Under the pieces are notes generated by a model. It had not been told where the DNA came from and ran no database searches. It worked only from the letters and a program-made list of their open reading frames with translations. The translations under genes and the position numbers were made by a program. DNA of 43,093 nt from Alphaproteobacteria bacterium (lineage in GTDB: Bacteria > Pseudomonadota > Alphaproteobacteria > JAQWUY01), in assembly GCA_029250225.1 (NCBI GenBank), contig JAQWUY010000003.1:1-43093 (forward strand), written 5' to 3'. Position 1 is the stretch's first letter. Every line of letters begins with the position of its first letter. Shown here one piece after another: positions 1 to 15,292 of the stretch.

Positions 1-745
1 CCTTTTTAACATATTCAATACAATCCTCAAAACTATCAAAATCATTAACATTAATAAAACATTCTGGATTTATATAATCCTTAACATCGGGTGCTCCCCA
101 ATAAATTGGAATTGAACCAGCCGATAATGATAATAATATTCTTTCCGATAAATATCCCAATGACGATGAATTTTCAAAAGCAATTACAAATTTATAATCT
201 TTGTATATATTCATAGCCTTGTCATCCCAATCTGATACATATCTGGCTTCTGTCTTATCAAGTTTTGTATTATTTAATACACTCCCTAAACAATCAACTT
301 TTTTATAATCCATTAGTTTAATACAAAAAACTTTACGGGCTTTTGCTCGTTGATTAGAATACATAAAAGCACAAAATTTAGTTTTTGGCGAATTTTTTAA
401 TTCTTTAAATTCATCATATGATTTTTTATTAATCATTGAATTAAAACAAGAAAAATGAAAAATACAACTGCAATGTTTTGTATTTGGATATCCGTGAATT
501 TGATTTGAGCCAAGTGAAATGTCAGCATATTTATGATTTAAAACCATATTTTCAGTGCCAAAAAATATTTTAAAGCAATCATATTTAAGGTGTGAACTAA
601 GATAATCACCAGAAACAACCACATCTGGATTTTCTTCAACTATTTCTATATCGTATGTTTTTCTTAAAATATCATATAATGTATTACTTGTATTTTTATC
701 TACATTGTTAAAACCATCGATGTATTTAATTCTTAATTTTCTCAT
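1..745 (-). CDS. GT10 family fucosyltransferase, C-terminus cut by window edge
   Basis: The frame opens at an ATG at 745 and runs 248 codons to the window edge without a stop, so the C-terminus is missing. Visible hallmarks of the alpha-1,3/1,4-fucosyltransferase family (GT10) are an N-terminal half with KIFFGTEN (about 59-66) and a donor-binding block, FVIAFENSSSLGYLSER (186-202), followed by AGSIPIYWGAPDV (209-221) and CFINVNDF (229-236). In known members the GDP-fucose motif reads YVTEK; here it is YLSER, so the usual Lys is Arg. The family moves fucose from GDP-fucose to GlcNAc or Glc in Lewis-type glycans, usually at the cytoplasmic side of LPS assembly. The start lies 6 bp after the fcl stop, with AAAGGA about 11 nt upstream, so the two genes are probably co-transcribed and the donor-making enzyme is made next to its user. 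Acceptor specificity cannot be read from sequence. Confidence 0.85.
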   Translation of the reverse strand, partial: MRKLRIKYIDGFNNVDKNTSNTLYDILRKTYDIEIVEENPDVVVSGDYLSSHLKYDCFKIFFGTENMVLNHKYADISLGSNQIHGYPNTKHCSCIFHFSCFNSMINKKSYDEFKELKNSPKTKFCAFMYSNQRAKARKVFCIKLMDYKKVDCLGSVLNNTKLDKTEARYVSDWDDKAMNIYKDYKFVIAFENSSSLGYLSERILLSLSAGSIPIYWGAPDVKDYINPECFINVNDFDSFEDCIEYVKK

Positions 746-751
746 TTTCAA

Positions 752-1690
752 TTAATCCTTTTTAGTTAAAAAATCAGAATACATTTTTTGCAAGCCAATT
801 TTTAAATCTGTTTTCGCATGCCAACCCAAATTATTTATTTTTGTGCTGTCTAGTAACTTTCTTTTAATACCATCAGGCCTATCAGCATTCCAATCTATTT
901 TACCCGTAAAGCCAACAATATCACAAATATTTTTTACTAATTCTTTAATTGTTATATCATTGCCAACACCAATATTTATAGGTTCGTAGCCAGAGTAATT
1001 ATCAGCTAAGAAAACCAATCCATCTGCACAATCTTCGGAAAAAATAAATTCACGCATTGGTTTTCCCGAGCCCCAAACTTCCACATATTCATCATTGCTA
1101 GTTTTCGCATTGTGTATCCTATCTAATAATGTAGGAATTACATTACCATTTTCTTGTATATATTTATCTTTTAACCCGTATATATTACAAGGGATGACAG
1201 AAATTGCATCAAAACCATACTGTTTTTTATAAAATTGACACATTTTTATACCAGAAAGCTTTGCAACTGAGTAAGATTCATCTGTTGTTTCCAACTTACC
1301 TGATAAAATATAATTTTCAGCCATCATTTCGCCACAACTTTTTGGATATAGACTACTAGTGGCAACAAATATTAACTTTTTAACACCATATTTATAGGCA
1401 TAATGAATAATATTATTTTGTATGGACATATTTTCATATATGAATTCTGCTGGAAAGTCCATATTTGCTTTTATGCCACCAACACGCGCGGCAACCAAAA
1501 ACACACAATCAATTTTTTCAGATTTAAATAAATTTTCTACATCAGATTGAATTGTCAAATCCAATTCATTTCTGGTTCGAGTAATAATATTTTCAACACC
1601 TTCTGATTTCAATCTTCTGGTAATTGCACTACCCAACATACCTGCATGACCAGCTACATATATATTTTTGTATTTATTTATCAAACTCAT
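752..1690 (-). CDS. fcl: GDP-L-fucose synthase
   Basis: 312 residues, the normal length for GDP-4-keto-6-deoxy-D-mannose 3,5-epimerase/4-reductase, the NADPH-dependent last step to GDP-L-fucose in the cytoplasm. It is an extended SDR: the nucleotide-binding GxxGxxG is AGHAGMLG (13-20), a serine pair sits in TSSLYP (111-116), and the catalytic YxxxK is YSVAK, Tyr140 and Lys144. RVGGIKAN and the MREFIFSEDCADG block are typical of Fcl. The ATG at 1690 is preceded by GAGG six bases upstream. The preceding enzyme, Gmd (GDP-mannose 4,6-dehydratase), is not in the window and would have to lie elsewhere, perhaps left of the edge. The fucosyltransferase that would use the product follows 6 bp downstream. 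The call is secure; colitose-type alternatives are less likely given the GT10 neighbour. Confidence 0.95.
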   Translation of the reverse strand: MSLINKYKNIYVAGHAGMLGSAITRRLKSEGVENIITRTRNELDLTIQSDVENLFKSEKIDCVFLVAARVGGIKANMDFPAEFIYENMSIQNNIIHYAYKYGVKKLIFVATSSLYPKSCGEMMAENYILSGKLETTDESYSVAKLSGIKMCQFYKKQYGFDAISVIPCNIYGLKDKYIQENGNVIPTLLDRIHNAKTSNDEYVEVWGSGKPMREFIFSEDCADGLVFLADNYSGYEPINIGVGNDITIKELVKNICDIVGFTGKIDWNADRPDGIKRKLLDSTKINNLGWHAKTDLKIGLQKMYSDFLTKKD

Positions 1691-1794
1691 AAAAAACCTC
1701 GAACATTATTTAGCAATTAATATACCACATTATAATTAAAAATAAAAATAAAAAAGATAATTAAGGTAATTTATATTATTATTTTTAGTATTAT

Positions 1795-2529
1795 TTACTT
1801 ACCATCAACTATACGAGATATTTTATAAGAGAATTGTTTTTTTATTTGATAACACAACCAATTCCAAAATCCAAATTGTCCAAACATTGATTTTTTACCT
1901 GTGCGATTATTTTCCAAATACGACAGTTCTATTTTAGGATGATTTACAATGCGTGGGATAATCGCCACTGTATTTGTAATATTATTTATATTCACGCCCC
2001 AATCAGAAGCCCAAGAAATTGGAATAATCGATTCATATAATCTTTTTGCAGTTTCAAGTGTTAAATAATAGCCAACCGCACCGTTTGGTGTTTTGACAAG
2101 TTTTACCATATTATATTGTTTAAAGAATTTGTTTTTACTGCCATACATAGCCCTTGCATACAAATGGTACAAATAAATAAAACCTTTACCTGAATTTTCA
2201 CACAATTTATTTTTTACCATCTCGGCAAAATCGTCACCAAGTATACAATCATCTTCCAATATAATGGCATTATCAATATTTTCATCAATAATTTTTTTGC
2301 AAACCAATGCATGTGATAATGCACAGGCAATTTCACTGTCTGATATGTCCGCACCAATGCGTTTTTTAGCCAATTTTCTATCCACCATAGATTCATATTT
2401 ATTTGGCAAGCCTTGTCGTCCATCAATAGCATCGAAAAATTCAAATGCAAGGCCGAGACTTTTCATTTGAGATTCCATTTCTTTTCTTCTATCTTTTGAA
2501 TCTTTTAAGCTAATTACAAATATTTTCAT
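1795..2529 (-). CDS. Glycosyltransferase family 25 (LOS/LPS galactosyltransferase type)
   Basis: 244 residues that open directly with the GT25 signature MKIFVISLKDSKDRR, followed by FFDAIDGR (31-38), the CALSH motif (69-73) and the acidic ILEDDC motif (90-95) that stands in for DxD. GT25 enzymes such as LgtB and Lex2B add beta-linked galactose, sometimes glucose, to lipooligosaccharide. With galE and a fucose branch nearby, a galactosyltransferase making a LacNAc-type acceptor is the natural guess, but donor and linkage are inference. No membrane segment is evident; the basic C-terminus could bind the inner membrane. It has its own 104-bp gap to fcl downstream, and I see no strong ribosome site before the ATG. 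Confidence 0.85.
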   Translation of the reverse strand: MKIFVISLKDSKDRRKEMESQMKSLGLAFEFFDAIDGRQGLPNKYESMVDRKLAKKRIGADISDSEIACALSHALVCKKIIDENIDNAIILEDDCILGDDFAEMVKNKLCENSGKGFIYLYHLYARAMYGSKNKFFKQYNMVKLVKTPNGAVGYYLTLETAKRLYESIIPISWASDWGVNINNITNTVAIIPRIVNHPKIELSYLENNRTGKKSMFGQFGFWNWLCYQIKKQFSYKISRIVDGK

Positions 2530-2671
2530 TTATCTGATTTCTTGATTTTTTTATCTTTAAAGTAACTTTACAATATATATATTAGTGTGATATTACAAGT
2601 CAAATCAATAACATATTAGAATTAAGTTCATACGACAAACAAGAATAGGGTAGATATTGGAATAAAAATAA

Positions 2672-3301
2672 ATGTATATTATAAAACTAACCAATAAAAT
2701 AAATAATATTATAACTTTAAGCATATTAAATATAATGTTATTAGGTGCTTTTTTATTATATTTTCTATCCAATAAAAATATTGAAATATATATGTTATTT
2801 ATAATATATTTAACTTTATTTTCTATATACAATCAATATAAAAGCGATGTGCTTATACGAATTCATCTAAAAAGAATGTTAATATTATTTTGTATATTTT
2901 TTTGTATTTTAGCAATAGAGTATATTTTATCATACCATCTTACAATGGCGGTAAATCACGATTATTTACTTGATACTGGACGCCCTCCACAAGGTAAGAC
3001 TATAAAAGGATTTGAACAAGAATATTTAGCTTATATAGAAAAATTTCCTGAATATAAAAACGGCTTTATGTACTTTATATGGCTAATAATTTTTATATTT
3101 CGTTGTATTTTTTATATATGCATTAGTGCATTCTTTATCTATCCATCATACACTATACGCTTTATTACGAAGCGAGTTTTTAGGCAAAAAAATGTTATAT
3201 GCTCTAAGGAAATACTATTTATGTTACCTATTTTTACTCCGATGATTATATATATTTTTTATATATTAAATATTTTTATTATTTCAAATCATTTTCAGTA
3301 G
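2672..3301 (+). CDS. Unknown multi-pass membrane protein
   Basis: 209 residues with about five hydrophobic segments (roughly 11-34, 37-53, 70-90, 133-160 and 185-207) and a polar loop at 92-130 containing DTGRPPQGKTIKGFEQEY, the only stretch that looks selected for chemistry. I recognise no family. It is the sole plus-strand gene in the glycan block and its last 23 bases overlap the 3' end of the ispD-like gene on the other strand. The ribosome site is poor (GGA about 12 nt before the ATG), and the coding sequence is extremely AT-rich, so part of the hydrophobicity may reflect base composition. A long frame with a plausible loop argues that it is real. A role in polysaccharide export or acylation is possible only by location. 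Confidence 0.55.
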   Translation: MYIIKLTNKINNIITLSILNIMLLGAFLLYFLSNKNIEIYMLFIIYLTLFSIYNQYKSDVLIRIHLKRMLILFCIFFCILAIEYILSYHLTMAVNHDYLLDTGRPPQGKTIKGFEQEYLAYIEKFPEYKNGFMYFIWLIIFIFRCIFYICISAFFIYPSYTIRFITKRVFRQKNVICSKEILFMLPIFTPMIIYIFYILNIFIISNHFQ

Positions 3302-3932
3302 TAATTTTAATATTTTTAGCATCGCCTTCAACTAAAAATATTTCCTTATTAGGTAGGTAATGTTTTACAATACTTATATCATCAGAAAAAGTTAATTTTT
3401 CCTCGTACATTTCATAAGCCTGTTTTATTATTTTATATTTAAATCCTTGTGGGGTTTGTGCCATTACAAAATTATCTCTATCAGGTATGTTTTTAACCTT
3501 ACCATTTTCAATTTCATATAATGTGTCAGTAGTGGCTAAAACACTCGCCACACAATCATAATTTTCTAATGCATTTATACAATCTTTAATAATTTTATCT
3601 GATACAAATGGGCGAACGCCATCGTGAATTAACACATTTTTTGCATCTTGAGCAACTGCCATAACTCCATTATATGCAGATTGTGAACGAGTTTTTTTGC
3701 CACCTGCAACTACACTTTCAACTTTTGAAAATTCATCCGCTATGTTTTTTGTATCATTCAAGAAATTATGATTTGCAACGACAATTATTTTATCAATCAA
3801 CTTGGATTCATTAAAAGCCCTTAGGGTATGCCACAATATAGCTTTATCATCAATTCTAACAAATTGTTTCGGCATATCAGCACCGAAACGAACACCAGAA
3901 CCACCAGATAATATAATAGCATAATTAGTCAT
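3279..3932 (-). CDS. IspD/TarI-family cytidylyltransferase
   Basis: 217 residues of the 2-C-methyl-D-erythritol-4-phosphate cytidylyltransferase family. The CTP-binding N-terminus is LSGGSGVRFGADMPKQF (8-24). It also has GGKKTRSQS (77-85), a HDGVRPFV block and TPQGF. The HDGVRPF form lies between classical IspD (HDAARP) and ribitol-phosphate cytidylyltransferases such as TarI/Bcs1 (HDSVRPF). The protein ends at KITTENDLK, roughly ten residues before most relatives. Its ATG abuts the galE stop with no spacing, so it is translationally coupled to a sugar-nucleotide gene. Two readings remain: housekeeping IspD of the MEP pathway, which many alphaproteobacteria carry as an IspDF fusion, or an enzyme making a CDP-alditol for the neighbouring glycan. 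The family is sure, the substrate is not. Confidence 0.8.
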   Translation of the reverse strand: MTNYAIILSGGSGVRFGADMPKQFVRIDDKAILWHTLRAFNESKLIDKIIVVANHNFLNDTKNIADEFSKVESVVAGGKKTRSQSAYNGVMAVAQDAKNVLIHDGVRPFVSDKIIKDCINALENYDCVASVLATTDTLYEIENGKVKNIPDRDNFVMAQTPQGFKYKIIKQAYEMYEEKLTFSDDISIVKHYLPNKEIFLVEGDAKNIKITTENDLK

Positions 3933-4925
3933 TTATTTTTTAATCCAATTCAAATGCGATGAAACCATATCATCTAAACCATACTTTGCTTGCCAATTTA
4001 ATTTTTGTTTTGCAAAATCACAATTTGCATAACACTGTGCAACATCACCATCACGAGGCGGGCAAATTTCATAAGGTATTTTTTTACCACTAGCAGTTTC
4101 AAAAGCCTTTATAACCTCTAACACACTATAACCCTTGCCCGTGCCTAGATTAATACTATCACATTGTAAATTATTTATATTTTTTAATGCCTGCATATGT
4201 CCAGAAATTAAATCCATAATATGAATATAATCTCTTATTCCTGTACCATCAGGGGTATCATAATTATCACCAAATACTGAAACCTTTTCAACCTCACCAA
4301 TTGCAACCTTGCCAACAAACGGGGCTAGGTTATTAGGTAACCCTTGCGGATTTTCACCGATTAATCCACTAGAATGTGCGCCGATTGGATTAAAATACCT
4401 TAGTATAGCAATATTATACGAATTGTTTTCTTGATATAATGCCCCTAGAATTTCCTCGCAAGCAATTTTAGTTTCACCATATGGATTTATAGCAGATAAA
4501 GAATGTTGCTCATCAATTGGTAAATATTCAGGTTTGCCATAAACCGTTGCCGATGATGAAAATACAATATCATTACAATCGTACTTTTCCATCATTTCCA
4601 AAACATTTTCCAACCCGCCAATATTATTTTTATAATACAGTTCTGGTTTTTCAATGCTTTCACCCACCGCTTTTAAAGCCGAGAAATGAATAACTGCGTC
4701 AATTTTATTTTCTTTAAAAACCGTCTCTAACTCATCATCGCAAATATCTATTTTATAAAATTTTGCTGATTTATTTGTAATTCTACTGATGTTTTTTAAT
4801 ACAGATTTATCAGAATTAATAAGATTATCAACAATAATCACATTGTAATTATTGTTTAATAACTCAACTGCCATATGCGAACCAATATAACCCGCTCCAC
4901 CTGTTAAAAGAATGTTTTTATTCAT
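3933..4925 (-). CDS. galE: UDP-glucose 4-epimerase
   Basis: 330 residues, close to the E. coli enzyme, which interconverts UDP-glucose and UDP-galactose with bound NAD. The dinucleotide motif is TGGAGYIGSH (8-17), SSSATVYG covers 123-130 and the catalytic pair is Tyr149-Lys153 in NPYGETK, with Ser124 in register with the well-studied E. coli residues. The substrate-lining RYFNPIGAHSSGLIGE and the C-terminal GTGKGYSVLEV are also canonical. It is the first gene of a minus-strand pair with the ispD-like gene (zero spacing). Its upstream region carries the left copy of the 22-bp direct repeat at 4960-4981, so whatever lies to the right was placed very near its promoter. It would supply UDP-galactose to the GT25 enzyme; some GalE proteins also act on UDP-GlcNAc. 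Confidence 0.95.
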   Translation of the reverse strand: MNKNILLTGGAGYIGSHMAVELLNNNYNVIIVDNLINSDKSVLKNISRITNKSAKFYKIDICDDELETVFKENKIDAVIHFSALKAVGESIEKPELYYKNNIGGLENVLEMMEKYDCNDIVFSSSATVYGKPEYLPIDEQHSLSAINPYGETKIACEEILGALYQENNSYNIAILRYFNPIGAHSSGLIGENPQGLPNNLAPFVGKVAIGEVEKVSVFGDNYDTPDGTGIRDYIHIMDLISGHMQALKNINNLQCDSINLGTGKGYSVLEVIKAFETASGKKIPYEICPPRDGDVAQCYANCDFAKQKLNWQAKYGLDDMVSSHLNWIKK

Positions 4926-4959: not shown

Positions 4960-4981
4960 AAAGATAATTCCTGAGGGGTAT
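4960..4981. repeat. 22-bp direct repeat, left copy, flanking SIR2-HerA
   Basis: The 22 bases here are identical to 8586-8607 in the same orientation. The core reads AATTCCTGAGGGGTA. Bases on either side of the two copies differ, so the match is bounded. The two copies enclose exactly the sir2 and herA genes. The length is greater than normal transposase target duplications and would suit a site-specific integration core or a recombination scar; no integrase is present. Confidence 0.85.
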
Positions 4982-5252: not shown

Positions 5253-6677
5253 ATGAGTAATACAGATGTAAAAGATACGGAATATCAGCAAACCGGAAAA
5301 AATAATGATAATAAAAATCAACAAACCGAAAAAGGTATAAAATTCTATCAAGGTGAGAAAGACAAGTTTGAAAAAGATAACATTGAAAATGAAAATAAAT
5401 TAGAATACTTAAAAACATATTTTGAAGAATTGCTTAATACCCCGAACATAAATTTTTTACTTGGCTCTGGCACCAGTGCAAAAGCTATTCCCACAATGAA
5501 AGGCATACAAGAAGATTTAGAGAAAGAGCTAGAAAAAGAATATTGGAAGCTAAAAATAAAAGACCCCTTATCAGAAGAAGAATTTAAGAAGATAAAAGAA
5601 GAATATCGGAAGCTAAAAATAAAAGACCCCTTATCAGAAGAAGATTGTAAGAATTTAGAACAAATACTAGGATATTTATACTCTTATAAAGAATATTTAG
5701 AGGCATCTAATAATGCCTCTAATGATAATGATAGCACTAATGATAAACTTATTAAATTAATAGAGGGCATTATTTTTAAGAAAATTAATATTATAAGTGA
5801 TGGTACTAGTGATAATGAACATTATAAAGACACTATAAAAAATTATGAAGAATTTTATCAAAAAATTTCGCGTAGAAACATAGACTTGGCTCGTCCAAAT
5901 ATCTTTACTACCAATAACGATCTGTTTAATGAAACAGCTATGGATAATTTGAATATTAATTACAATAATGGTTTTAGTGGAGGAATAAAAAAATACTTCA
6001 ATCCAGCACAATTTAACTCTGTACTTTCGCAAAAAGTAGATTTAAATTTAGAGAAATATCAACCTATAGAAAATCTTGTAAATTTATACAAATTACACGG
6101 TTCGGTTAATTGGGTGGAAGATGAAAATAACTCAAATAAATTTTTTAATATACGGGAAACTCAATTTTTTAATACAGAGAAAAATCAATCAAATGACAAA
6201 AAAAACAAGGTACTTATTTACCCTACTCCATTAAAACAAAATAAAAGTTTAGGTTCTCCTTATACAGATTTATTACGAGAATTTCAAAAAAAATTATTGT
6301 TGCCGGATAATGTATTAATAATTATAGGTTTTAGTATGCGAGATGAACATATTAATAATATAATATACCAATCACTAACTATTAATTCATCTTTAAATAT
6401 AGTGCTTCTTGCCGACCCAGAAAATAATGGGAATTTAAAAAATTTAAACGAAATAAAAGACCCGAGAATATTTTTTATTTATGGAAAAGATAAAGAAGAA
6501 ATTCACTATTTTAAATATATTGTAGAAAAATTAATCCCTATTATAAAAGAAGATAAAGAATTGAAATTATTAAAAGAATTTAATGATAAAATTAAACAAA
6601 AAGAAGAAAATATTAAACAAAAAGAAGAAAATATTAAACAAAAAGATGAAAATATTAAACAAAAAGAAGAAAAATAA
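5253..6677 (+). CDS. SIR2-domain defence effector, partner of HerA
   Basis: 474 residues. A charged N-terminus (1-50) precedes a SIR2-like NAD-binding domain: FLLGSGTS (68-75) is the glycine-rich loop, FTTNND (218-223) corresponds to the TxNxD motif, KLHGSVNW (280-287) carries the presumed catalytic His282, and IIIGFSMRDEH (356-366) with IVLLADPE closes the Rossmann fold. Between the loop and TTNND lie a 21-residue internal duplication and an acidic low-complexity stretch (about 151-165). The C-terminus is four heptads of the type IKQKEEN (447-474), predicted to be helical. The stop overlaps the herA start by one base (TAATG), a tight two-gene unit. SIR2-HerA pairs are established anti-phage systems in which SIR2 depletes NAD and HerA assembles the complex; applying this here is by homology and gene order. 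The heptad tail is not something I know from described members. Confidence 0.88.
   Translation: MSNTDVKDTEYQQTGKNNDNKNQQTEKGIKFYQGEKDKFEKDNIENENKLEYLKTYFEELLNTPNINFLLGSGTSAKAIPTMKGIQEDLEKELEKEYWKLKIKDPLSEEEFKKIKEEYRKLKIKDPLSEEDCKNLEQILGYLYSYKEYLEASNNASNDNDSTNDKLIKLIEGIIFKKINIISDGTSDNEHYKDTIKNYEEFYQKISRRNIDLARPNIFTTNNDLFNETAMDNLNINYNNGFSGGIKKYFNPAQFNSVLSQKVDLNLEKYQPIENLVNLYKLHGSVNWVEDENNSNKFFNIRETQFFNTEKNQSNDKKNKVLIYPTPLKQNKSLGSPYTDLLREFQKKLLLPDNVLIIIGFSMRDEHINNIIYQSLTINSSLNIVLLADPENNGNLKNLNEIKDPRIFFIYGKDKEEIHYFKYIVEKLIPIIKEDKELKLLKEFNDKIKQKEENIKQKEENIKQKDENIKQKEEK
5545..5651 (+). repeat. 63-bp internal tandem duplication in sir2
   Basis: Copy one begins at 5545 and copy two at 5608. The first 37 bases of each are identical and the next few differ slightly. 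In frame it repeats the residues KLKIKDPLSEE at 100-110 and 121-131. It is a recent in-frame duplication lying between the SIR2 glycine loop and the rest of the domain. Confidence 0.85.
6591..6674 (+). repeat. Four 21-bp tandem units encoding heptads at the SIR2 C-terminus
   Basis: Units start at 6591, 6612, 6633 and 6654. Each encodes IKQK(E/D)E(N/K). Unit three has one codon change (GAA to GAT) and unit four ends slightly differently, just before the stop. Because 21 is a multiple of three, gain or loss of units would keep the herA-coupled stop in place. Confidence 0.9.
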
Positions 6678-8593
6678 TGAAAATAGGTAAAGTTATATCA
6701 ATAGAGCACGATAAATTTAAAATAAAATTATCTTCAGAAATTATAACAAATTCACTGCACATATCAGGTGAAACATATTATTTTGGTAATATTGGAGGAT
6801 ATGTCAAAATAAAAAATTCTTTAAATGAATGGATTATATGTGAAATAATTTCTATTTTTAATAATGATAATAATTCTGATGATCAATATAGTGCTTTGCC
6901 CAACAGAGACATAATAGCCAAACCTATTGGCTCCCTTTCTTCTAAAAATGATAATTTTAAATTAGGTATTAGCATTTTTCCATCTATTTATTCAAATGTT
7001 GAAATTATAACACATGAAAATATGAATCATATTTTATCTAACGACAACGAGCAAGACAGCGCAGGACAAGTACACTCACACATTAATATTGGTACTAGTA
7101 AAAATCTAATTAATTATCCTGTTAAAATCAGTATAGATAAATTATTCAATATACACAGTGCCATACTTGGAAATTCAGGAAGTGGTAAATCTAATACAAT
7201 TTCTACCATTTTACAGGCAATTATCGAGAAAAAAAATTTTAGTGCTGAGTGTGCTAAAATAGTTATTTTTGATGTTAATGGAGAATACGAAAATGCCATA
7301 GAAAATAAAAAAGAAAATGGTATAAAAATTAAATATTTTAAACCTAATATAGATAAGAAAGATATAAAAGAAATAAAGAAGACAAATCCAAAAAAAAACA
7401 TACCTAAACCATTCTACTTGCCTCATTTTTTATTAGATTTAGATGAGTGGGCTGATTTTTTATTAGCAACTGAAGCCCCACAAAAACTTTTTTTTAAGCA
7501 AGTGAGGCAAGAAAGTATTATATTGAAAAAAATAAGTAATAACAAAAAAAAATTGGGAAATTATATAAAATGCCGAATAACTTCATTAGTAGAAGAAACC
7601 TTAAAAGTAGCTGATAACGATACCTCTGTAATAACAACAAGCCGAAACCTGCTATATAAAATAGAATCAATAATAAAAAATGATAAAATTAATAAAACTG
7701 CTGGAATTGAGAAATTTATAAAAGAATTCATAGGAAAATGTAACCTTGAATATGGGCAAAATAAAGAATTAAAAAAGCATATTGATGGAATATCAAATGA
7801 TGAAAATATAAACAGAGATAAATACAATACCCTAAGAAATAAAAAGATAAAAGCTAATTCTTACTTTGACTATAAATTCATACAAACAGCAGCAGAGTGG
7901 ACTTTACTAGAAGAAGAAGCAAAAGGAAACAAAAGGATTCGTGAACACACCTCAACAATGATATCAAGACTAGAACATTTTACCCAAGACGATGAATGTA
8001 AATTTATGCGAGACGGTAATAAAATAAAATCAAAAAAAGGTTTTTATGATCAATTATTTGAAGATAATCAAATAGTTATTATAGACACCAGTGAACTAAA
8101 CCCTTATTCCTTAGAAACTCTTACTAGTGTAACATCACGAATATTATTTGATTATAAAAAAGAAGCTAACAATCGTAACAAAGAGCCTATTCATTTAATT
8201 TTAGATGAAGCACACAGGTATATAAAAAAGGATACAAAATATATAATTAAGGAAAATATATTTGAAAAAATATCTCGTGAAGGTAGAAAGTTTGCTATTT
8301 ATTTAATGGTATCATCGCAAAGGCCTTCTGAGCTATCTGAAACAGTTTTATCTCAATGTGGAAACTTCATAATACATAGAATACAAAGCCAAATAGATAT
8401 GAATTTTATAGCAAATATTATGCCTTTCTTTTCTGATGATTTTAGAAATAAAATAAAACTGTCTGTACCAGGAGAAGCCCTAATGTTTGGAAATTTCGTG
8501 CCAATGCCTTTACAGGTAAAGATAAAAAAAGCAAACCCTGAACCAAAAAGTAAAAATTGTAATATTCCTGAAGAATGGTTTAAAAAAAGATAA
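6677..8593 (+). CDS. herA: HerA-family ATPase of the SIR2-HerA defence pair
   Basis: 638 residues. An N-terminal beta-rich HAS-barrel-like region (about 1-110) is followed by a RecA/FtsK-type motor: Walker A is GNSGSGKS (165-172) and Walker B is LILDEAH (507-513), with SREGRKF and SSQRPSELSETVLSQCGNFIIHR after it, the usual HerA C-terminal signature. A lysine-rich helical insertion spans roughly 215-430. HerA proteins form hexamers that pump DNA. In housekeeping or archaeal settings they pair with NurA nuclease, but here the partner is a SIR2 protein, the defence arrangement. The start overlaps the sir2 stop by one base. The last two codons and the stop lie inside the right copy of the 22-bp direct repeat, so the boundary of the mobile unit supplies the end of the gene. 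Confidence 0.9.
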   Translation: MKIGKVISIEHDKFKIKLSSEIITNSLHISGETYYFGNIGGYVKIKNSLNEWIICEIISIFNNDNNSDDQYSALPNRDIIAKPIGSLSSKNDNFKLGISIFPSIYSNVEIITHENMNHILSNDNEQDSAGQVHSHINIGTSKNLINYPVKISIDKLFNIHSAILGNSGSGKSNTISTILQAIIEKKNFSAECAKIVIFDVNGEYENAIENKKENGIKIKYFKPNIDKKDIKEIKKTNPKKNIPKPFYLPHFLLDLDEWADFLLATEAPQKLFFKQVRQESIILKKISNNKKKLGNYIKCRITSLVEETLKVADNDTSVITTSRNLLYKIESIIKNDKINKTAGIEKFIKEFIGKCNLEYGQNKELKKHIDGISNDENINRDKYNTLRNKKIKANSYFDYKFIQTAAEWTLLEEEAKGNKRIREHTSTMISRLEHFTQDDECKFMRDGNKIKSKKGFYDQLFEDNQIVIIDTSELNPYSLETLTSVTSRILFDYKKEANNRNKEPIHLILDEAHRYIKKDTKYIIKENIFEKISREGRKFAIYLMVSSQRPSELSETVLSQCGNFIIHRIQSQIDMNFIANIMPFFSDDFRNKIKLSVPGEALMFGNFVPMPLQVKIKKANPEPKSKNCNIPEEWFKKR

Positions 8594-8607
8594 TTCCTGA
8601 GGGGTAT
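8586..8607. repeat. 22-bp direct repeat, right copy, overlapping the herA stop
   Basis: Identical to 4960-4981 over 22 bases. It covers the last two herA codons, the TAA at 8591-8593 and most of the short gap to the convergent Sel1-DUF2971 stop. Between the repeats, one copy included, the unit is 3,626 bp. Confidence 0.85.
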
Positions 8608-8614
8608 TTATTTT

Positions 8615-10666
8615 TTATTGGAATTTTATTTCTGATTTTTTAACCTCGATATCATTTGAATCGCCGAGATATCTTGCATAGAGATATTCTTTGTTCTCGA
8701 CCTTAGGAGCAATAGTTATCGATTTAAAATCAACTTCCGGAGCTTCTACATAAACCCTACTTGTATCAGAACAAGATTTAAGAACTTTTCTTTTAATGTC
8801 ATCTTTAAATGCAAATTGAACTAATCTTATTTCTTTTTCATATGCATAATCATCATATTTAATAATATGAGCTAATTCAGCTAATAATTTTGGTAATTGT
8901 TCATCGTAATCACCATTTATTATCTCATCGATTTGTTTAACTGCTTCTTGCAAATGTTTGAGCGCTTCAAATTGATCTTCAATTTTCAAATCACCTTCTT
9001 TAATTTCTGTAATTTTTTTATTTCTTGGTAAATACATTACTTCATATAAGTTTTGTAAAGTAGCTTGCTGTGAATTATCTAGATTTAAATAATTTTTTTC
9101 AGAAGAATTTTTACTAGGGTTTATTAATTTTTCAATACTCTTTTTAGTCAGGCTTAAACCGACTCCTTTTGAATTATCAGCATAGGTATTCCACATCGGT
9201 AAGTTTTCAGGGTTTCCCTTACAAAAACTTAAAATTAATGGGTAACTATCTTTATAAGTATAGTTTTTGAATTCATCGTGTTCTAAACATTCAAAAAGTG
9301 TTTTCCCTTCCATAGGGTCATTACAACCGTTAACATCACTTAACCTTAATTTGTTGACTGTCTCTTTTTCTATAACCTTTTTAAAAACTTCAAAACTAGT
9401 AAAATGAGTCAAAGAAATTTTATCAACATCCTTTATTTTCAATTCTTTTAAAACAGAGTGAATTTCAAAAACAATCTTAGCCAAAGTTGGAATTTTTTCA
9501 ATTTTGGTTTTTTCTGATTCTTTTTGTTCAGCAAAAAACTGTTTTCTTTCATCAGTAATTCCTATATTTAAAGAGTGTCTATACCATTTTACTGCTTCAT
9601 TAAAATCTGGCCCAACACCACAAGCACCTCGTTCATAAATCGTACCTAAACTAAGCTGAGCATCAGAATTACCGTTATTAGCAGATTTTTCCCACCATTC
9701 AACTGCCTTTTCATCATCTTTCCCAACCCCCTTACCATTAAAATACATAAATCCTAAATTATTTTGAGCATCGGCATTGCCCTGTTGAGCAGATTTTGTA
9801 TACCATTTAACTGCTTTATAAATATTCTCCTCAACTCCATCGCCAAGGTGATAAGCTACCCCTAAATAAAACTGAGCCTTGTCATTATCCTGTTGAGCAG
9901 ATTTTATATACCAATAAACTGCCTTTACAGGATTATTCTCAACTAATTTACCTTCATAATACAAATTCCCTAAATTACATTGAGCATCAGCATTACCTTC
10001 CCCGTTATTAGCAGATTTTTCCCACCATTTAATTGCCTGTTCATAATCTTTTTTACCTCCCCAACCATAATAATAAGCTCGCCCTAAATTAAGTTGAGCA
10101 CCGGCATAACCTTGATCAGCAGATTTTTCCCACCATTCAATTGCCTGTTTATAATCCTGTTTAACTCCGTGACCATTATAATAACAAGAACCTAAATTAT
10201 TTTGAGCAACAGCATTGCCTTGTTGAGCAGATTTTGTAAACCAATAAACTGCCTGTTTATAATCTTGATCAACTCCTTCACCATTATAATAAGCTAGCCC
10301 TAAATTACATTGAGCATTGGCATTACCTTGTTCAACAGATTTTCTGTACCATTTTACCGCTTCATCATAATCCTGTTTAACTCCCCAACCATTACTATAA
10401 GCTTTTCCTAAACGATGTTGAGCTCTAGCATTGCCCTGTTGAGCAGATTTTTTCCACCATTTAAATGCCTGTCGATAATCTTTTTTAACTCCCCAACCAT
10501 TATGATAAAATCGCCCTAGATAATATTGAATTCTTGCATTGCCTTGTTCCTCAATCTCTTTTTCCCGTTCCTTAATCTCTTTTTCCCGTTCCTTAATCTT
10601 TTTTTCCCATTCCTCAATCTTTTTTTTCAATTTATCATCATCATTATTATTATGATCGTCACTCAT
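8615..10666 (-). CDS. Sel1-repeat protein with C-terminal DUF2971 domain
   Basis: 683 residues in three parts. Residues 12-41 are a charged coiled coil with KEREKEI heptads. Residues 43 to about 369 hold nine Sel1-type helical repeats of about 36 residues (each with an LGxxYxxGxGVxxDYxxAxxWxxKSAxxG pattern), a protein-binding solenoid. From about 415 the protein matches DUF2971: LTHFTS, LRLSDVNGCNDPMEG, LSFCKG, LPMWNTYADNSKGVGL and a late EKEIRLVQFAF. DUF2971 has no function that I can name with confidence. No signal peptide, so cytoplasmic. The start at 10666 is preceded by AAAGGAAA and a good promoter at 10713-10741. It converges on herA with 21 bp between stops, so it is not in that operon, but the heptad-rich end echoes the SIR2 tail. 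Solenoid plus C-terminal effector is a common sensor-effector plan; a defence role is inference. Confidence 0.8.
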   Translation of the reverse strand: MSDDHNNNDDDKLKKKIEEWEKKIKEREKEIKEREKEIEEQGNARIQYYLGRFYHNGWGVKKDYRQAFKWWKKSAQQGNARAQHRLGKAYSNGWGVKQDYDEAVKWYRKSVEQGNANAQCNLGLAYYNGEGVDQDYKQAVYWFTKSAQQGNAVAQNNLGSCYYNGHGVKQDYKQAIEWWEKSADQGYAGAQLNLGRAYYYGWGGKKDYEQAIKWWEKSANNGEGNADAQCNLGNLYYEGKLVENNPVKAVYWYIKSAQQDNDKAQFYLGVAYHLGDGVEENIYKAVKWYTKSAQQGNADAQNNLGFMYFNGKGVGKDDEKAVEWWEKSANNGNSDAQLSLGTIYERGACGVGPDFNEAVKWYRHSLNIGITDERKQFFAEQKESEKTKIEKIPTLAKIVFEIHSVLKELKIKDVDKISLTHFTSFEVFKKVIEKETVNKLRLSDVNGCNDPMEGKTLFECLEHDEFKNYTYKDSYPLILSFCKGNPENLPMWNTYADNSKGVGLSLTKKSIEKLINPSKNSSEKNYLNLDNSQQATLQNLYEVMYLPRNKKITEIKEGDLKIEDQFEALKHLQEAVKQIDEIINGDYDEQLPKLLAELAHIIKYDDYAYEKEIRLVQFAFKDDIKRKVLKSCSDTSRVYVEAPEVDFKSITIAPKVENKEYLYARYLGDSNDIEVKKSEIKFQ
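10556..10618 (-). repeat. Three 21-bp tandem units encoding heptads at the Sel1-DUF2971 N-terminus
   Basis: Units lie at 10556-10576, 10577-10597 and 10598-10618. The first two are identical and the third has four changes. They encode the heptads KEREKEI, KEREKEI and a diverged EEWEKKI. The same period and residue type recur at the SIR2 C-terminus (6591-6674), although the DNA is different. Confidence 0.85.
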
Positions 10667-10756: not shown

Positions 10757-10773
10757 AATTCCCGCGGGGGGTA
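10757..10773. repeat. Degenerate third copy of the direct-repeat core
   Basis: AATTCCCGCGGGGGGTA resembles the core AATTCCTGAGGGGTA of the repeats at 4960 and 8586, with two substitutions and two extra G. It is the most GC-rich patch in a very AT-rich gap and sits just outside the tRNA-linked repeat at 10782. If related, it would bound the Sel1-DUF2971 gene on the right as the copy at 8586 does on the left. Confidence 0.4.
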
Positions 10774-10781
10774 AAATGGGT

Positions 10782-10858
10782 AATAAAAAAGTACGCATTA
10801 ACCTTATAAAAGATTTTATGCGTACTTTTTTTAATTGATGCTAACGGCAAGATTTAAA
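10782..10858. repeat. Direct repeat of terminator plus decayed tRNA-Leu 3' end (left copy)
   Basis: By hand alignment this 77-bp stretch matches 14283-14360 at about 71 of 78 positions (six substitutions and one missing T), same orientation. It contains the bidirectional terminator and then a decayed copy of the last 20 or so bases of tRNA-Leu(UAA). A tRNA 3' end repeated away from an intact tRNA is the usual footprint of an element integrated at that tRNA. Confidence 0.75.
10785..10832. terminator. Bidirectional rho-independent terminator, copy A
   Basis: Perfect 14-bp arms at 10785-10798 and 10818-10831: six A, then GTACGCAT, complementary to ATGCGTAC followed by a T run. Either strand ends in T after the stem. 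It serves the TonB-receptor gene, which ends at 10880 on the minus strand. Confidence 0.85.
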
Positions 10859-10868
10859 ATCCTGCCGT
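10844..10868 (-). terminator. Hairpin just after the TonB-receptor stop, inside the tRNA remnant
   Basis: ACGGCAAGATTT (10844-10855) pairs with AAATCCTGCCGT (10857-10868) apart from one A-C mismatch; the innermost pairs must open because the loop is one base. It lacks its own T run but precedes copy A of the terminator. Its left arm is the copied tRNA-Leu T-arm, so it may be an accidental product of the decayed tRNA end. Confidence 0.4.
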
Positions 10869-10879
10869 ATTGTTTAGTA

Positions 10880-13027
10880 TTAGAATGAAACTTTATATCC
10901 AACCCATACAGAACGATAGCCTTTTCTCTTTTCTACTGTCGTCGTCGTCTTTTTTAACACTGATGAATGGTAGCCTTGTTTAAACAAGTTAGTAACAGAT
11001 GCATATATTGCCCCACCATTATTCAGTTCGTATTGTGCGTACACATCGACATAGTTTGTACCTTTTATAGTTGTGGTTTTTTTACCATTTACTTCAGTAC
11101 GGCCTTTCTCAAACTTAGAAGATATTGACGCATATAGGCGTTTATATTTCCAACCTATTGTAGAGTTTGCAATGAAATCTGATTGACCATTAAATATACT
11201 GATAGAACCATCTTTCTTTCTTAGTTTAGATGACATTATCGTTTGGTTTAAATCAAGACTAACAGTACCTGGGATAATTGGTTTAAGGAAATTCACATCA
11301 AATTTTTGTGAAAGTTCTAGACCTTGAACATGGCCGTTACCAACATTTTCAGGACGCAAAACTGTATAGGTTGCACTATCAATTTCTTTAGTTTCACCTG
11401 TATCAACTTCTTCTTGAATTACATTTTTGATATTTCTACGGAATATGTTTGCAGATAAATTATATTCTCCACCATTGTAGGTTACACCCATATCAAATGT
11501 GTCAGCTTTTTCCGCAAGCAAGTTAGGATTCCCGCGTTCAACTTCTGTACCCTTCGGTTCTTTTTCCCAAGGAACTAATTGTTGATAGCTAGGTCTGTTA
11601 ACTTTCTTAGAATAAGCCATTGTGAAGTTTGTCATATCGTTAAGCTTATAATTAGATATTATAGATGGTAAAAAATTCTGATTAGATGTATTTGTCGTCT
11701 CAGTCGCAGTAACACCTTTTCTCTTTATTTTTTCAAATCTAATACCTGGTAATACTGTCCAACCATTTTTAAACTTAGCTTCATTTTGAATATAAAAAGC
11801 AGTATATTTTTCATTTAAAGAATAAATCTCTTCTTTATCTTCATCTGGACTTAAAACACCCTTTTTATATACTACTATATTTCTATTATGATTGTTGTCG
11901 CGATAAACAAAACCTGTTTTGATTGTATTAATATCATCATATGGTTTTGTCATATCAGAACTTAAACGAGTTAAAGTATTTGCTTGTTTTTCAATGCTGT
12001 GTGTTTTTGCAATATTTGCTACAACACCTGTATCATTATCAATTTCATATTCATTTTTATCTTTTGTAAAATTCGTTTTAACTCTACTGATAGAGGTATT
12101 AAGATTAATATTATTAGCAAAAGTATGATCATTAACAATAGTTAAACCAGCGGTAAGCGAAGGATGTTCTCTATAATCATATTCATTCTTATCAATTGTA
12201 GTGTTTCCAGTGCCATTATTATATGCAATATTTAATTCATTTTTATCGCGTATTTTGTTTAATTTTAAATAAATAGGGCTAAAAGTAATAGTTCCTCTGT
12301 TATAAGATTTCTCTAAATTACCCATCACTCCAGTAGTGATTTTTGTTTGAGTTACAACATCTTTATCTCTCTCATAATTATTTGGAGTATCAGAATCAAT
12401 AGCAAGTTTTGTTTCGTATTTCGCATTCACATATTTAGAATTGGAAATAGAAAAATTAGCTTTTAATGTCGGGGAAATAACTTTATTCACATATAAAGAA
12501 GTTAAATGTCCATACTTTGAATTCATCGCTCCACTAGATACATCAAAAGAATATGTGTTTTTATTTGTCGGCTTTCTAGTATTCATATCAATGCGACCAC
12601 CAATACCATCTGCATTATATGATGCAGAAGCATTATTTATTATTTTCACTTCACCGATCATTGGAGTTGGAATTATATCAACTTTAAAATATCGGCTATT
12701 TTCATCACCGTACGATGGTAACTCTATTCCATCAACACTTATTCTAGTATAATTTTGATTAAGGCCGCGTAATTTAATTACTTCTTTTTCACCTGGTTTT
12801 TCAGAACTACTAATCCCTACTCCACGCTTTAAAACATCATATACAGAAAAAGAATTTACTTGTTTAGTAAAATCTTCTCTTTTAATTGAGTTGACCATAC
12901 TAGTATCTTTTTCATTTATAAGTTTTTTCGTCGTAACAACTTTGGGAAGATTTTTTTCCGCGTGCGCAGGCATTATTACCGCCAATACTGCTAGTATATA
13001 CATGTACTGTAATTTATTTTTTATCAT
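10880..13027 (-). CDS. TonB-dependent outer-membrane receptor
   Basis: 715 residues from the chosen ATG. An upstream in-frame ATG at 13063 would add 12 residues, but the ATG at 13027 has GGTAGGA about 8 nt before it and starts a clean signal peptide (MIKNKLQYMY..., cleavage near AHA-EKN). A TonB-box-like KVVTT follows. The plug domain (about 55-165) shows VYDVLKRGVGI, LRGLNQNYTRISVDGIELP, and NNASASYNADGIGGRIDM. The 22-strand barrel ends with VSF, an aromatic last residue as needed for outer-membrane insertion. These receptors import iron-siderophores, haem, B12 or sugars using TonB-ExbB-ExbD, none of which is in the window. The neighbour is a divergent ABC membrane domain, suggesting a shared substrate, unidentified. 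The gene lies between two copies of a tRNA-linked repeat and may be acquired. Confidence 0.9.
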   Translation of the reverse strand: MIKNKLQYMYILAVLAVIMPAHAEKNLPKVVTTKKLINEKDTSMVNSIKREDFTKQVNSFSVYDVLKRGVGISSSEKPGEKEVIKLRGLNQNYTRISVDGIELPSYGDENSRYFKVDIIPTPMIGEVKIINNASASYNADGIGGRIDMNTRKPTNKNTYSFDVSSGAMNSKYGHLTSLYVNKVISPTLKANFSISNSKYVNAKYETKLAIDSDTPNNYERDKDVVTQTKITTGVMGNLEKSYNRGTITFSPIYLKLNKIRDKNELNIAYNNGTGNTTIDKNEYDYREHPSLTAGLTIVNDHTFANNINLNTSISRVKTNFTKDKNEYEIDNDTGVVANIAKTHSIEKQANTLTRLSSDMTKPYDDINTIKTGFVYRDNNHNRNIVVYKKGVLSPDEDKEEIYSLNEKYTAFYIQNEAKFKNGWTVLPGIRFEKIKRKGVTATETTNTSNQNFLPSIISNYKLNDMTNFTMAYSKKVNRPSYQQLVPWEKEPKGTEVERGNPNLLAEKADTFDMGVTYNGGEYNLSANIFRRNIKNVIQEEVDTGETKEIDSATYTVLRPENVGNGHVQGLELSQKFDVNFLKPIIPGTVSLDLNQTIMSSKLRKKDGSISIFNGQSDFIANSTIGWKYKRLYASISSKFEKGRTEVNGKKTTTIKGTNYVDVYAQYELNNGGAIYASVTNLFKQGYHSSVLKKTTTTVEKRKGYRSVWVGYKVSF

Positions 13028-13178
13028 TTTTTTTCCTACCATATTAAGAATATTATTAACCATAGAAACAGGTGTTAAATAATTAGTGTTGATTAATCTA
13101 AAAATACTTGATTAGTATTGTAAGATTTTTTTGTGATTAATATATAGAACTGTAAAAGTACTTTATATCATAGATGAC

Positions 13179-13206
13179 AATATAACTATTTCTTTTTGTT
13201 TGTCAA
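13179..13206 (-). promoter_or_regulatory. Sigma-70 type promoter for the TonB receptor
   Basis: On the minus strand a perfect TTGACA (13206-13201) and TATATT (13184-13179) are 16 bp apart. The leader would be about 145 bases. I see no clear Fur box over it. Confidence 0.6.
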
Positions 13207-13246
13207 TAATATAATTAAAACAATACTTTATAAGTTATTTATATTG

Positions 13247-13273
13247 TTGACACATCTTAAAATTTCATATAGT
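13247..13273 (+). promoter_or_regulatory. Possible promoter for the ABC membrane-domain gene
   Basis: A perfect TTGACA at 13247-13252 and TATAGT at 13268-13273 are 15 bp apart, a short spacing. The two divergent -35 elements are only about 40 bp apart, so one regulator could control both genes. Confidence 0.45.
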
Positions 13274-13333
13274 ACTGCATAATAATTCTACAAAATTCAA
13301 AGTTTAAAATTTCATTAAAAATTAGGATTTACA

Positions 13334-14272
13334 ATGTTAAATATAAAAATATTCAAATACAAATTACGTTATATGTACGCGCTTGAATTGTATAAACAAA
13401 TGGTAAACCTACTTCTAAAACATCCTTGGTTATTGTTGCTTACGATATTACCTAATATTATTAATTTAATGTTAAAACCTGCTGAGGCGTGGCTAGCAAA
13501 AGAAGTGTTTAGTGAAGTTATTAAAGGTGATAATAGTTTTTTATTAACATCTTTATTACAATACATTCCTATCGTAATTGGAATATTTATCGTATTATCT
13601 TTGTTGGAAATGTCTGAAAAGATGACTGACAAAATGTTAGATGAAAGACTATATATAAGCACTCAACGACTTTGGTTTTCCCGCAAAAAAAATAATTCTA
13701 GTGTGTCCGAAGATATAAGTAAATCAGTATATGATTGTAAATTAGCCAGAAAATCTCTTGATATTTTGAAAAAAGATATTTGGGTTGTTATTGTTGGCTT
13801 ACCATCTGTTATTATTTGGCAAATATCATTAGCTGAAGAATATGTTTTGCCTTTATTAATTGTTGGTATTTTCCCTTTTTTAATCAGTCTATGTTTTGGT
13901 AAACTTATTGCAAAATATAGTAATTATTCCTTACAGTTCATCAGCTCTGTATCATCGGCCATTGCCAATAATAATGTCAAAGATATGTACACAGAACAAG
14001 AAAAATACTACAAAACAAAATTAAGTGGCGAATGGTGGCAACAATGCAGTGAGGTTTTATCTAATACCTCACATTGGTTAATTATGGCAATAATGATATT
14101 GTTATCCGTATATGATATAATTCCGTTATTACCGAAAGAACTATCTCCGCCTGATGTAGCTGCGTTTTTAGTAAACTTAAAATTAATTAACAAACCGTTT
14201 CAAGAATTAGTGGCATTATACAATGAATTGCACAAAGCCTACCCTGCAATAAAAAGAGTACTTCGCCCGTAA
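13334..14272 (+). CDS. ABC-exporter-type membrane domain without ATPase domain
   Basis: 312 residues with about five to six hydrophobic segments (near 26-45, 74-90, 150-166, 171-190, 247-268 and possibly 275-290). The pattern and the closing stretch AAFLVNLKLINKPFQELVALYNELHKAYPAIKRV resemble the last membrane helix and exit of ABC exporter halves, where the ATP-binding domain normally follows. Here the protein stops at once (VLRP, stop at 14270-14272) and 10 bp later the tRNA-linked repeat begins, so the ATPase half, about 250 residues, is absent. Either it works with an ATPase encoded elsewhere or it was cut when the cassette was formed. It is divergent from the TonB receptor with facing promoters, which suggests inner-membrane handling of the same ligand. 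No strong ribosome site (AGGATTTACA before the ATG). Family assignment is moderate. Confidence 0.6.
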   Translation: MLNIKIFKYKLRYMYALELYKQMVNLLLKHPWLLLLTILPNIINLMLKPAEAWLAKEVFSEVIKGDNSFLLTSLLQYIPIVIGIFIVLSLLEMSEKMTDKMLDERLYISTQRLWFSRKKNNSSVSEDISKSVYDCKLARKSLDILKKDIWVVIVGLPSVIIWQISLAEEYVLPLLIVGIFPFLISLCFGKLIAKYSNYSLQFISSVSSAIANNNVKDMYTEQEKYYKTKLSGEWWQQCSEVLSNTSHWLIMAIMILLSVYDIIPLLPKELSPPDVAAFLVNLKLINKPFQELVALYNELHKAYPAIKRVLRP

Positions 14273-14282
14273 ATCTATTAGA

Positions 14283-14360
14283 AATAAAAAAGTACGCATT
14301 AACCTTGTAAAAGATTTTATGCGTACTTTTTTTTAATTGGTGCCCACGGCAAGACTTGAA
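14283..14360. repeat. Direct repeat of terminator plus tRNA-Leu 3' end (right copy)
   Basis: The counterpart of 10782-10858. Here the tRNA part is intact, so this is the original and the left one the copy. The two copies are 3.5 kb apart and enclose the TonB receptor and the ABC membrane domain. Confidence 0.75.
14286..14334. terminator. Bidirectional rho-independent terminator, copy B
   Basis: The same 14-bp arms as copy A, at 14286-14299 and 14319-14332, with an eight-T run. It ends the ABC membrane-domain gene from the left and tRNA-Leu from the right. Confidence 0.85.
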
Positions 14361-14425
14361 CTTGCACGCCCATAAAGAGCGACAGATTTTAAGTCTGTTG
14401 CGTCTACCAATTCCGCCACGTGGGC
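14338..14425 (-). tRNA. tRNA-Leu, anticodon UAA
   Basis: 88 nt including an encoded CCA. The acceptor stem GCCCACG pairs with CGTGGGC, the D-arm has GGCGGAATTGGTAGAC, the anticodon loop is CTTAAAA with anticodon UAA (reads UUA/UUG), a long variable arm marks class II, and the T-arm is GTTCAAGTC. Its 3' end is the segment duplicated at 10838-10858. Confidence 0.97.
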
Positions 14426-14566: not shown

Positions 14567-15292
14567 TCAGCATTTATCGATATATGATTTAATATCCTTA
14601 TAACATAAATCTAGATTCTTTTTATTACGGCTTCGCATTACTATTTCTGTTGAAAAACCGTTGTCGTGAAATTTGGGATATGAGCCGATGGAAACATCAT
14701 CATACGATGAGGCTATTTTTGCAATAGTGTCACCTATTGTTCCCTCACTTAAATTTTCTTTAAAAATAGTATATTTGTGTACTTTAATCCCGCCTTGCAT
14801 AGTTGGCAATATATCATTAAGCATCACATTAAATATTTTTGGTATACCTGCACAAACATAAACATTTTCAACATTTGCCCCTGGTGCTATCGAAATTGAG
14901 TTATCAATTAATTTACAACCTTTTGGCATTTTAGCGAGATTAGTTCGCGTATCAGTCAAAGGCAATTCTCTTTCTTTGTAATAAGCCGATAGCCTGCGCA
15001 ATGCTTCTTGATTTTGTTCAATTTCTAGACCAAAAGCACTAGCCACACATGCAAATGTTATATCGTCGTGTGTTCCACCAATACCGCCACAAGTAAATAC
15101 ATAATCATATTTTTTTGAAAAGTGCTTAACAGTTTCAACGATAGTATCAAAGACATCACCTATTACGCGAACTTCGACTAAGTCAAATCCATACTCATCT
15201 AGGCTTTTAGCAAGAAAATTTATATTCTTATCAGCCGTTTTCCCGTTTAATATTTCATCTCCGATGACTACAAATCCGACTTTTTTAATCAT
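14567..15292 (-). CDS. Molybdopterin-binding-domain protein (CinA N-terminal / MoaB-like)
   Basis: 241 residues of the family often named competence/damage-inducible protein A, but only the N-terminal molybdopterin-binding fold. Marks are VVIGDEILNGKTADKN (7-22), the TCGGIGGTHDDIT loop and APGANVENVYVCAGIP. The C-terminal NMN-deamidase domain of full CinA is absent, as is common in alphaproteobacteria, so the biochemical role is open. The protein has no signal peptide. Its start lies 3 bp after the accC stop, making it the last gene of the aroQ-accB-accC unit. MoeA-type molybdenum insertion is unlikely because the protein is too short. The family call is sure; the function is not. Confidence 0.85.
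   Translation of the reverse strand: MIKKVGFVVIGDEILNGKTADKNINFLAKSLDEYGFDLVEVRVIGDVFDTIVETVKHFSKKYDYVFTCGGIGGTHDDITFACVASAFGLEIEQNQEALRRLSAYYKERELPLTDTRTNLAKMPKGCKLIDNSISIAPGANVENVYVCAGIPKIFNVMLNDILPTMQGGIKVHKYTIFKENLSEGTIGDTIAKIASSYDDVSIGSYPKFHDNGFSTEIVMRSRNKKNLDLCYKDIKSYIDKC

Follow-up and report, generated by a model that had tools for sequence, protein, structure and literature searches.

A duplicated tRNA-Leu end around a TonB receptor cassette looks like an insertion with long target duplication in a genome without detectable integrases

The window analyzed here, 43,093 nucleotides of contig JAQWUY010000003.1 from an alphaproteobacterial genome (GenBank assembly GCA_029250225.1), contains a tRNA-Leu(UAA) gene whose 3' end and terminator are repeated on the far side of a short cassette with a gene for a TonB-dependent outer-membrane receptor. 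This arrangement raises the question of how the cassette came to lie beside the tRNA, and the original prediction had taken it for the classic footprint of an element integrated at a tRNA. Our analysis indicates that the repeat looks like the result of insertion with long target duplication, a known and poorly understood process, rather than like the footprint of a tRNA integrase. Judged from the sequence, it is likely that the framing repeats are such a duplication and that seven or eight further cassettes of the genome arose by the same process, including a SIR2-HerA defence cassette in the same window.

ARAGORN, together with an Rfam tRNA match, identified an intact tRNA-Leu(UAA) gene at 14338-14425 on the minus strand. 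The T-arm, the 3' side of the acceptor stem and the terminator of this gene form the proximal copy of the repeat (14283-14368), and the distal copy is located at 10782-10866; both were delimited by repeat comparison and have no assigned strand. Positions 10782-10858 and 14283-14360 are 91% identical over 78 columns in the same orientation (E = 3e-24 for the whole genome), and the copies are 3,501 bp apart. A gapped alignment extends the homology a few bases into the T-arm, to about 10866 and 14368. In both copies the terminator folds into a strong hairpin on the minus strand, at 14286-14332 for the tRNA (-19.4 kcal/mol, z = -6.2) and at 10785-10831 for the distal copy (-20.2 kcal/mol, z = -7.3), and no shuffled sequence was equally stable. 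The changes in the distal copy are unevenly distributed, with 1 of 51 positions altered in the terminator versus about 8 of 28 in the portion derived from the tRNA (p = 8e-4 by Fisher's test). Both the repeat of roughly 78 bp at a distance of 3.5 kb and the decay of its distant tRNA end had been predicted, and alignment and genome search agree with this. Since the distal hairpin is now located just downstream of the receptor gene, it probably still serves as the terminator of this gene. The decayed tRNA-Leu fragment (10838-10866) is itself an almost perfect inverted repeat with a stem of about 11 pairs, positioned just before the terminator hairpin.

A hairpin used widely as a repeated terminator would have offered a trivial explanation, and the original prediction had named this case as one that would speak against it. 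The focal repeat occurs in only two places in the genome, which rules out a widespread terminator repeat; the matches listed for the minus strand merely reflect that the hairpin is a palindrome. No third tRNA-Leu fragment, as expected for serial insertions at the tRNA end, was found farther out in the window. On the 5' side of the tRNA lies a gene (14567-15292) that, among the 29 best-matching members of the class, seven also have near tRNA-Leu(UAA), and this flank is therefore probably ancestral.

Two genes are located between the focal copies. The first (10880-13063, minus strand) encodes the TonB-dependent receptor of 727 aa, which was recognized by the Pfam profiles OMP_b-brl_3 (2e-34) and Plug (2e-13) in a search that also covered NCBIfam, in line with the predicted outer-membrane receptor. 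It is the sole receptor of this type detected in the scanned genome and has no paralogue at E<0.1 among the open reading frames of the genome. Close relatives were found neither at E 1e-30 in 385 genomes of the class nor in a wider contig collection, and matches on plasmids were all below 60% identity, mostly 20-30%. The second gene (13334-14272, plus strand), whose stop codon lies 10 bp before the repeat, encodes a helical, apparently membrane-bound protein of 312 aa with no detectable family. The original label of an ATP-binding cassette (ABC) membrane domain could not be confirmed for this protein: Pfam gave no match up to E 10 and the PDB no sequence match, and a single-sequence model with a pLDDT (predicted local distance difference test) of 43.5 was too weak to use. 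As the non-significant fold matches of this model include several ABC exporters, the protein is possibly a divergent membrane domain of the ABC-exporter type without an ATPase.

The genome comprises 1,197,446 bases in a draft of 48 contigs and is scored 100% complete; none of the other genomes compared belongs to the same genus, family or order. A scan for direct repeats covered 1,187,182 of these bases (99%) and counted pairs of which one copy or both are non-coding, to the exclusion of tRNA pairs. It revealed seven to nine footprints in which one to three genes are located between direct repeats of 22-147 bp with 91-100% identity, each at a different target. Besides the focal cassette (C25 10782/14283, the contig of the window) and the SIR2-HerA cassette (C25 4960/8586, 22 bp), a single gene for a GmrSD_N/HEC-05 protein is framed by an exact repeat of 41 bp from the terminator region of tRNA-Ser(UGA), with copies 1,805 bp apart (C14 44574/46379, locus 44437-46419). 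The first 147 bp of an acyl-CoA ligase gene are present twice, 98.6% identical, and frame a DUF4917 (PDC-S21) gene (C11 6747/8291, locus 6747-8437). On the same contig an Eco47II-type restriction endonuclease and a C5 methylase are enclosed by 63-64 bp (95%) of DNA that follows a stop codon (C11 77274/79391, locus 77274-79453). A D12 methylase and a nuclease are framed by 30 bp from the end of zorE (C40 2625/4852, stretch 1-4881), and a second DUF4917 gene by 66 bp (91%) on a contig that ends inside the left copy (C5 1/2370, stretch 1-2435). The last locus contains a T5orf172 gene and a small gene of 104 aa after tRNA-Glu, with repeats of about 50 bp (C14 97781/98226/98931). This locus is tangled, as partial copies of the start of the T5orf172 gene are scattered after tRNA-Glu and frame the 104-aa gene, and part of it could have arisen when the start of the T5orf172 gene was itself duplicated in tandem. 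At the zorE locus, ZorA, ZorB and ZorE-like genes (Zorya type II) precede the D12 methylase-nuclease pair, and both genes end in QYKY.

Over the eight loci the repeat sequences are unrelated, and the duplicated sequence is that of the resident target, namely tRNA-Leu, the terminator of tRNA-Ser, the 5' end of the acyl-CoA ligase gene, the 3' end of zorE or the sequence after a stop codon. All 14 qualifying matches, a number which includes sub-repeats of single loci and three matches from a short tandem array on C42, are spaced by less than 5 kb and none by a greater distance; the framing repeats are therefore not dispersed repeats. Applied to 920 kb from four further genomes of the class, the same scan yielded a single pair with a spacing of 421 bp and a single dispersed family; gene cassettes were not among its matches. 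These results bear on one alternative, a coincidence in which the tRNA end and terminator were duplicated in tandem and unrelated genes were gained later, or an error of the metagenome assembly. The draft state of the genome would be compatible with such an error, but most of the repeats, which measure 22-147 bp, show several differences between their copies, and these differences are distributed according to function. In addition, at least seven loci with defence cargo show the pattern, always with spacings below 5 kb. We consider this alternative very unlikely.

Most of the cassettes contain known or candidate defence genes. Using a threshold of E<=1e-30, 7 of 9 cassettes matched defence profiles compared to 1 of 40 random genes (p = 3e-6), an enrichment whose odds are approximate owing to the small random sample and the candidate systems included in PADLOC. 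The cargo types comprise restriction-modification (RM), GmrSD-like, DUF4917 and T5orf172 genes. RM systems are present in two cassettes, the Eco47II-type pair and the D12 methylase with its nuclease; an RM methylase query of the wider contig collection gave no matches. Apart from the two DUF4917 genes, which are 68% identical at the DNA level, and one stretch of 38 bp, the cassettes show no mutual DNA similarity, and no terminal sequence common to them was found.

Integration by a tyrosine recombinase at the 3' end of tRNA-Leu, with the cargo between attL and attR and the integrase lost or acting in trans, would account for several features of the focal locus: the repeat takes in the T-arm and the 3' end while the tRNA stays whole, and a framed cassette also follows closely on tRNA-Ser and another on tRNA-Glu. 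In agreement with the original prediction no integrase is encoded between the focal copies, and the genome as a whole gave no match to PF00589 or PF00239 for tyrosine and serine recombinases, whereas control genomes did. The zero matches to PF00589 also mean that not even XerC or XerD was detected, in a genome scored as complete. A recombinase could have been lost or a helper could have been present formerly, but the extent of the repeats also argues against this explanation. The focal repeat continues for about 55 bp past the tRNA up to the end of the terminator, and the repeats at tRNA-Ser and tRNA-Glu begin about 50 bp beyond the tRNA and do not include it. Moreover, protein genes show equal footprints of unrelated sequence, and a separate lost integrase would be needed for each. 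An origin of this kind thus appears unlikely. Of the footprint claimed at the outset, the insertion at tRNA-Leu is well supported, whereas its reading as the product of an integrase is weakened by the footprints at unrelated sites and by the lack of a detectable recombinase.

A transposon or composite transposon was rejected owing to the absence of common ends and the variation of the duplication length from 22 to 147 bp. Since neither a recombinase profile nor common cassette ends were found and the duplication length varies, no known type of integrase or transposase fits. This would leave room for an unrecognized insertion activity of the lineage, distinct from known integrases and transposases and from plain homologous recombination, which would put short accessory segments, mostly with defence genes, at terminators and the ends of genes and duplicate 20-150 bp of the target without breaking a resident gene. 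We regard such an activity as rather improbable.

According to the explanation that we favour, insertion with long target duplication, the TonB receptor and the membrane protein would have come in on a foreign segment of about 3.4 kb that inserted across the 3' end of tRNA-Leu and its terminator. The target would have been duplicated over 79-88 bp, which left the tRNA and its terminator whole, and the distal copy, having lost its role as part of a tRNA, would have decayed except for the hairpin, retained probably because it serves the receptor gene as terminator. In the same way one to three genes, mostly for defence, would have been inserted at unrelated sites with long target duplications of variable length. 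The repeats, with their lengths, their contents and their local pairing, and the lack of a detectable integrase are observations. The likeliest route to them would be DNA uptake followed by joining. We guess that the joining was RecA-assisted or illegitimate and not site-specific; uptake and joining of this kind are proposed because ComEC was detected in the genome and Ku was not found. The lack of Ku also led us to reject Ku-type end joining as the mechanism. In three cassettes, those with herA, the C11 DUF4917 gene (whose stop codon lies within the repeat) and the C40 nuclease, the last gene ends within the repeat, as would be expected if the junction of the incoming fragment lay close to the point where its last gene ends. 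The sequence shows that the target is intact on one side, and later homologous recombination between the repeats could lead to precise loss of a cassette.

The presence of ComEC would also be in line with a single crossover of the Campbell type, in which small circles consisting of the gene and one repeat copy, set free in related strains when the repeats recombine, would enter the cell and recombine at the matching single-copy site. Such a crossover yields exactly the observed structure and accounts for the imperfect repeats (91-98.6%), but it explains the spread of a cassette and not the origin of the first target duplication. In addition, transformation normally imports single-stranded linear DNA. 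This route appears unlikely as the source of the cassettes.

Several points weigh against insertion with long target duplication. The focal cassette carries neither a defence gene nor an RM system and is one of two such cassettes, and three of the eight loci are located at or just after tRNA genes, as would be expected for an integrase. For these two reasons an integrase origin is possible for the focal cassette alone. Furthermore, the target duplication is deduced from structure only, and the joining step is conjectural.

Insertion with long target duplication (Nobusato et al. 2000; Furuta et al. 2010, as cited in PMC1643837, PMC3031569 and PMC3874152) is described for Helicobacter pylori, where it is linked to RM genes (PMC1643837). 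RM systems are described to insert with target duplications that are long and variable and measure on the order of 100 bp (PMC3031569 and PMC3874152). The process as described resembles the present case: genes are enclosed by long and variable direct repeats of the target without an integrase or insertion-sequence ends, the link to RM genes is strong and the lengths are around 100 bp. The cases described concern RM systems, mainly in H. pylori, whereas the cargo here is mostly non-RM defence genes, the focal case is an outer-membrane receptor beside a tRNA, some repeats measure only 22-41 bp, and many cassettes occur in one genome without detectable site-specific recombinases. We took RM cargo as typical and not as required for membership. 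Six RM systems of H. pylori are flanked by repeats of 65-395 bp with 86-98% identity within a strain, and strains that lack a system have the sequence as a single copy (PMC10423294). The empty site of the type II systems was demonstrated there by strain comparison, whereas here it is predicted from the structure of one genome. Genomic islands integrated at tRNAs and tycheposons, which carry a tyrosine recombinase (xerD) and measure 4-200 kb (PMC10872708), share with the focal cassette its borders, one of them a tRNA and the opposite one a repeated tRNA 3' end. The two differ in the tyrosine recombinase, which is present there and was not detected here. The minimal mobile elements of Neisseria represent an integrase-free exchange of genes, often RM genes, between conserved genes of competent bacteria, and they swap through homology of the flanking genes and are not known to duplicate a target. 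They share the lack of an integrase with the cassettes described here and would differ from them in the target duplication. The term minimal mobile elements is used in PMC3388099 and PMC8627216.

With seven to nine framed cassettes of differing age, a single genome provides a set of junctions for comparison on the question of how streamlined, integrase-free genomes acquire defence genes. Our results suggest that insertion with long target duplication is not special to RM genes. Because the target is duplicated, insertion into genes or tRNA ends would be harmless and could be reversed by recombination, which suits genes that are often gained and lost. A duplicated tRNA end need not imply an integrase.

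The SIR2-HerA cassette illustrates the same arrangement within the window. A SIR2 defence protein of 474 aa (5253-6677, plus strand; PADLOC SIR2, E 6e-132) and the HerA-like ATPase of the pair with 638 aa (6677-8593, plus strand; PADLOC HerA, E 2e-191) are encoded by adjacent genes, and the PADLOC profiles match over nearly full length. Both genes are framed by an exact direct repeat of 22 bp, the left copy upstream of galE (4960-4981) and the right copy with the last codons and the stop of herA (8586-8607). Between this cassette and the focal one, a gene on the minus strand (8615-10666) encodes a protein of 683 aa with Sel1 repeats and DUF2971, identified by Pfam and weakly by the PADLOC profile PDC-S31 (E 4e-7). 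On its far side the sequence AATTCCCGCGGGG (10757-10769, plus strand) resembles the core of the 22-bp repeat and represents a third copy of this core in degenerate form. Motifs of the AATTCCCGCGGGG type, with one mismatch allowed, occur three times in the window compared to 0.12 expected, and one other match is located outside of it. Owing to this relative of the repeat beyond the Sel1 gene, the latter is possibly a third cassette, a weak assignment made post hoc.

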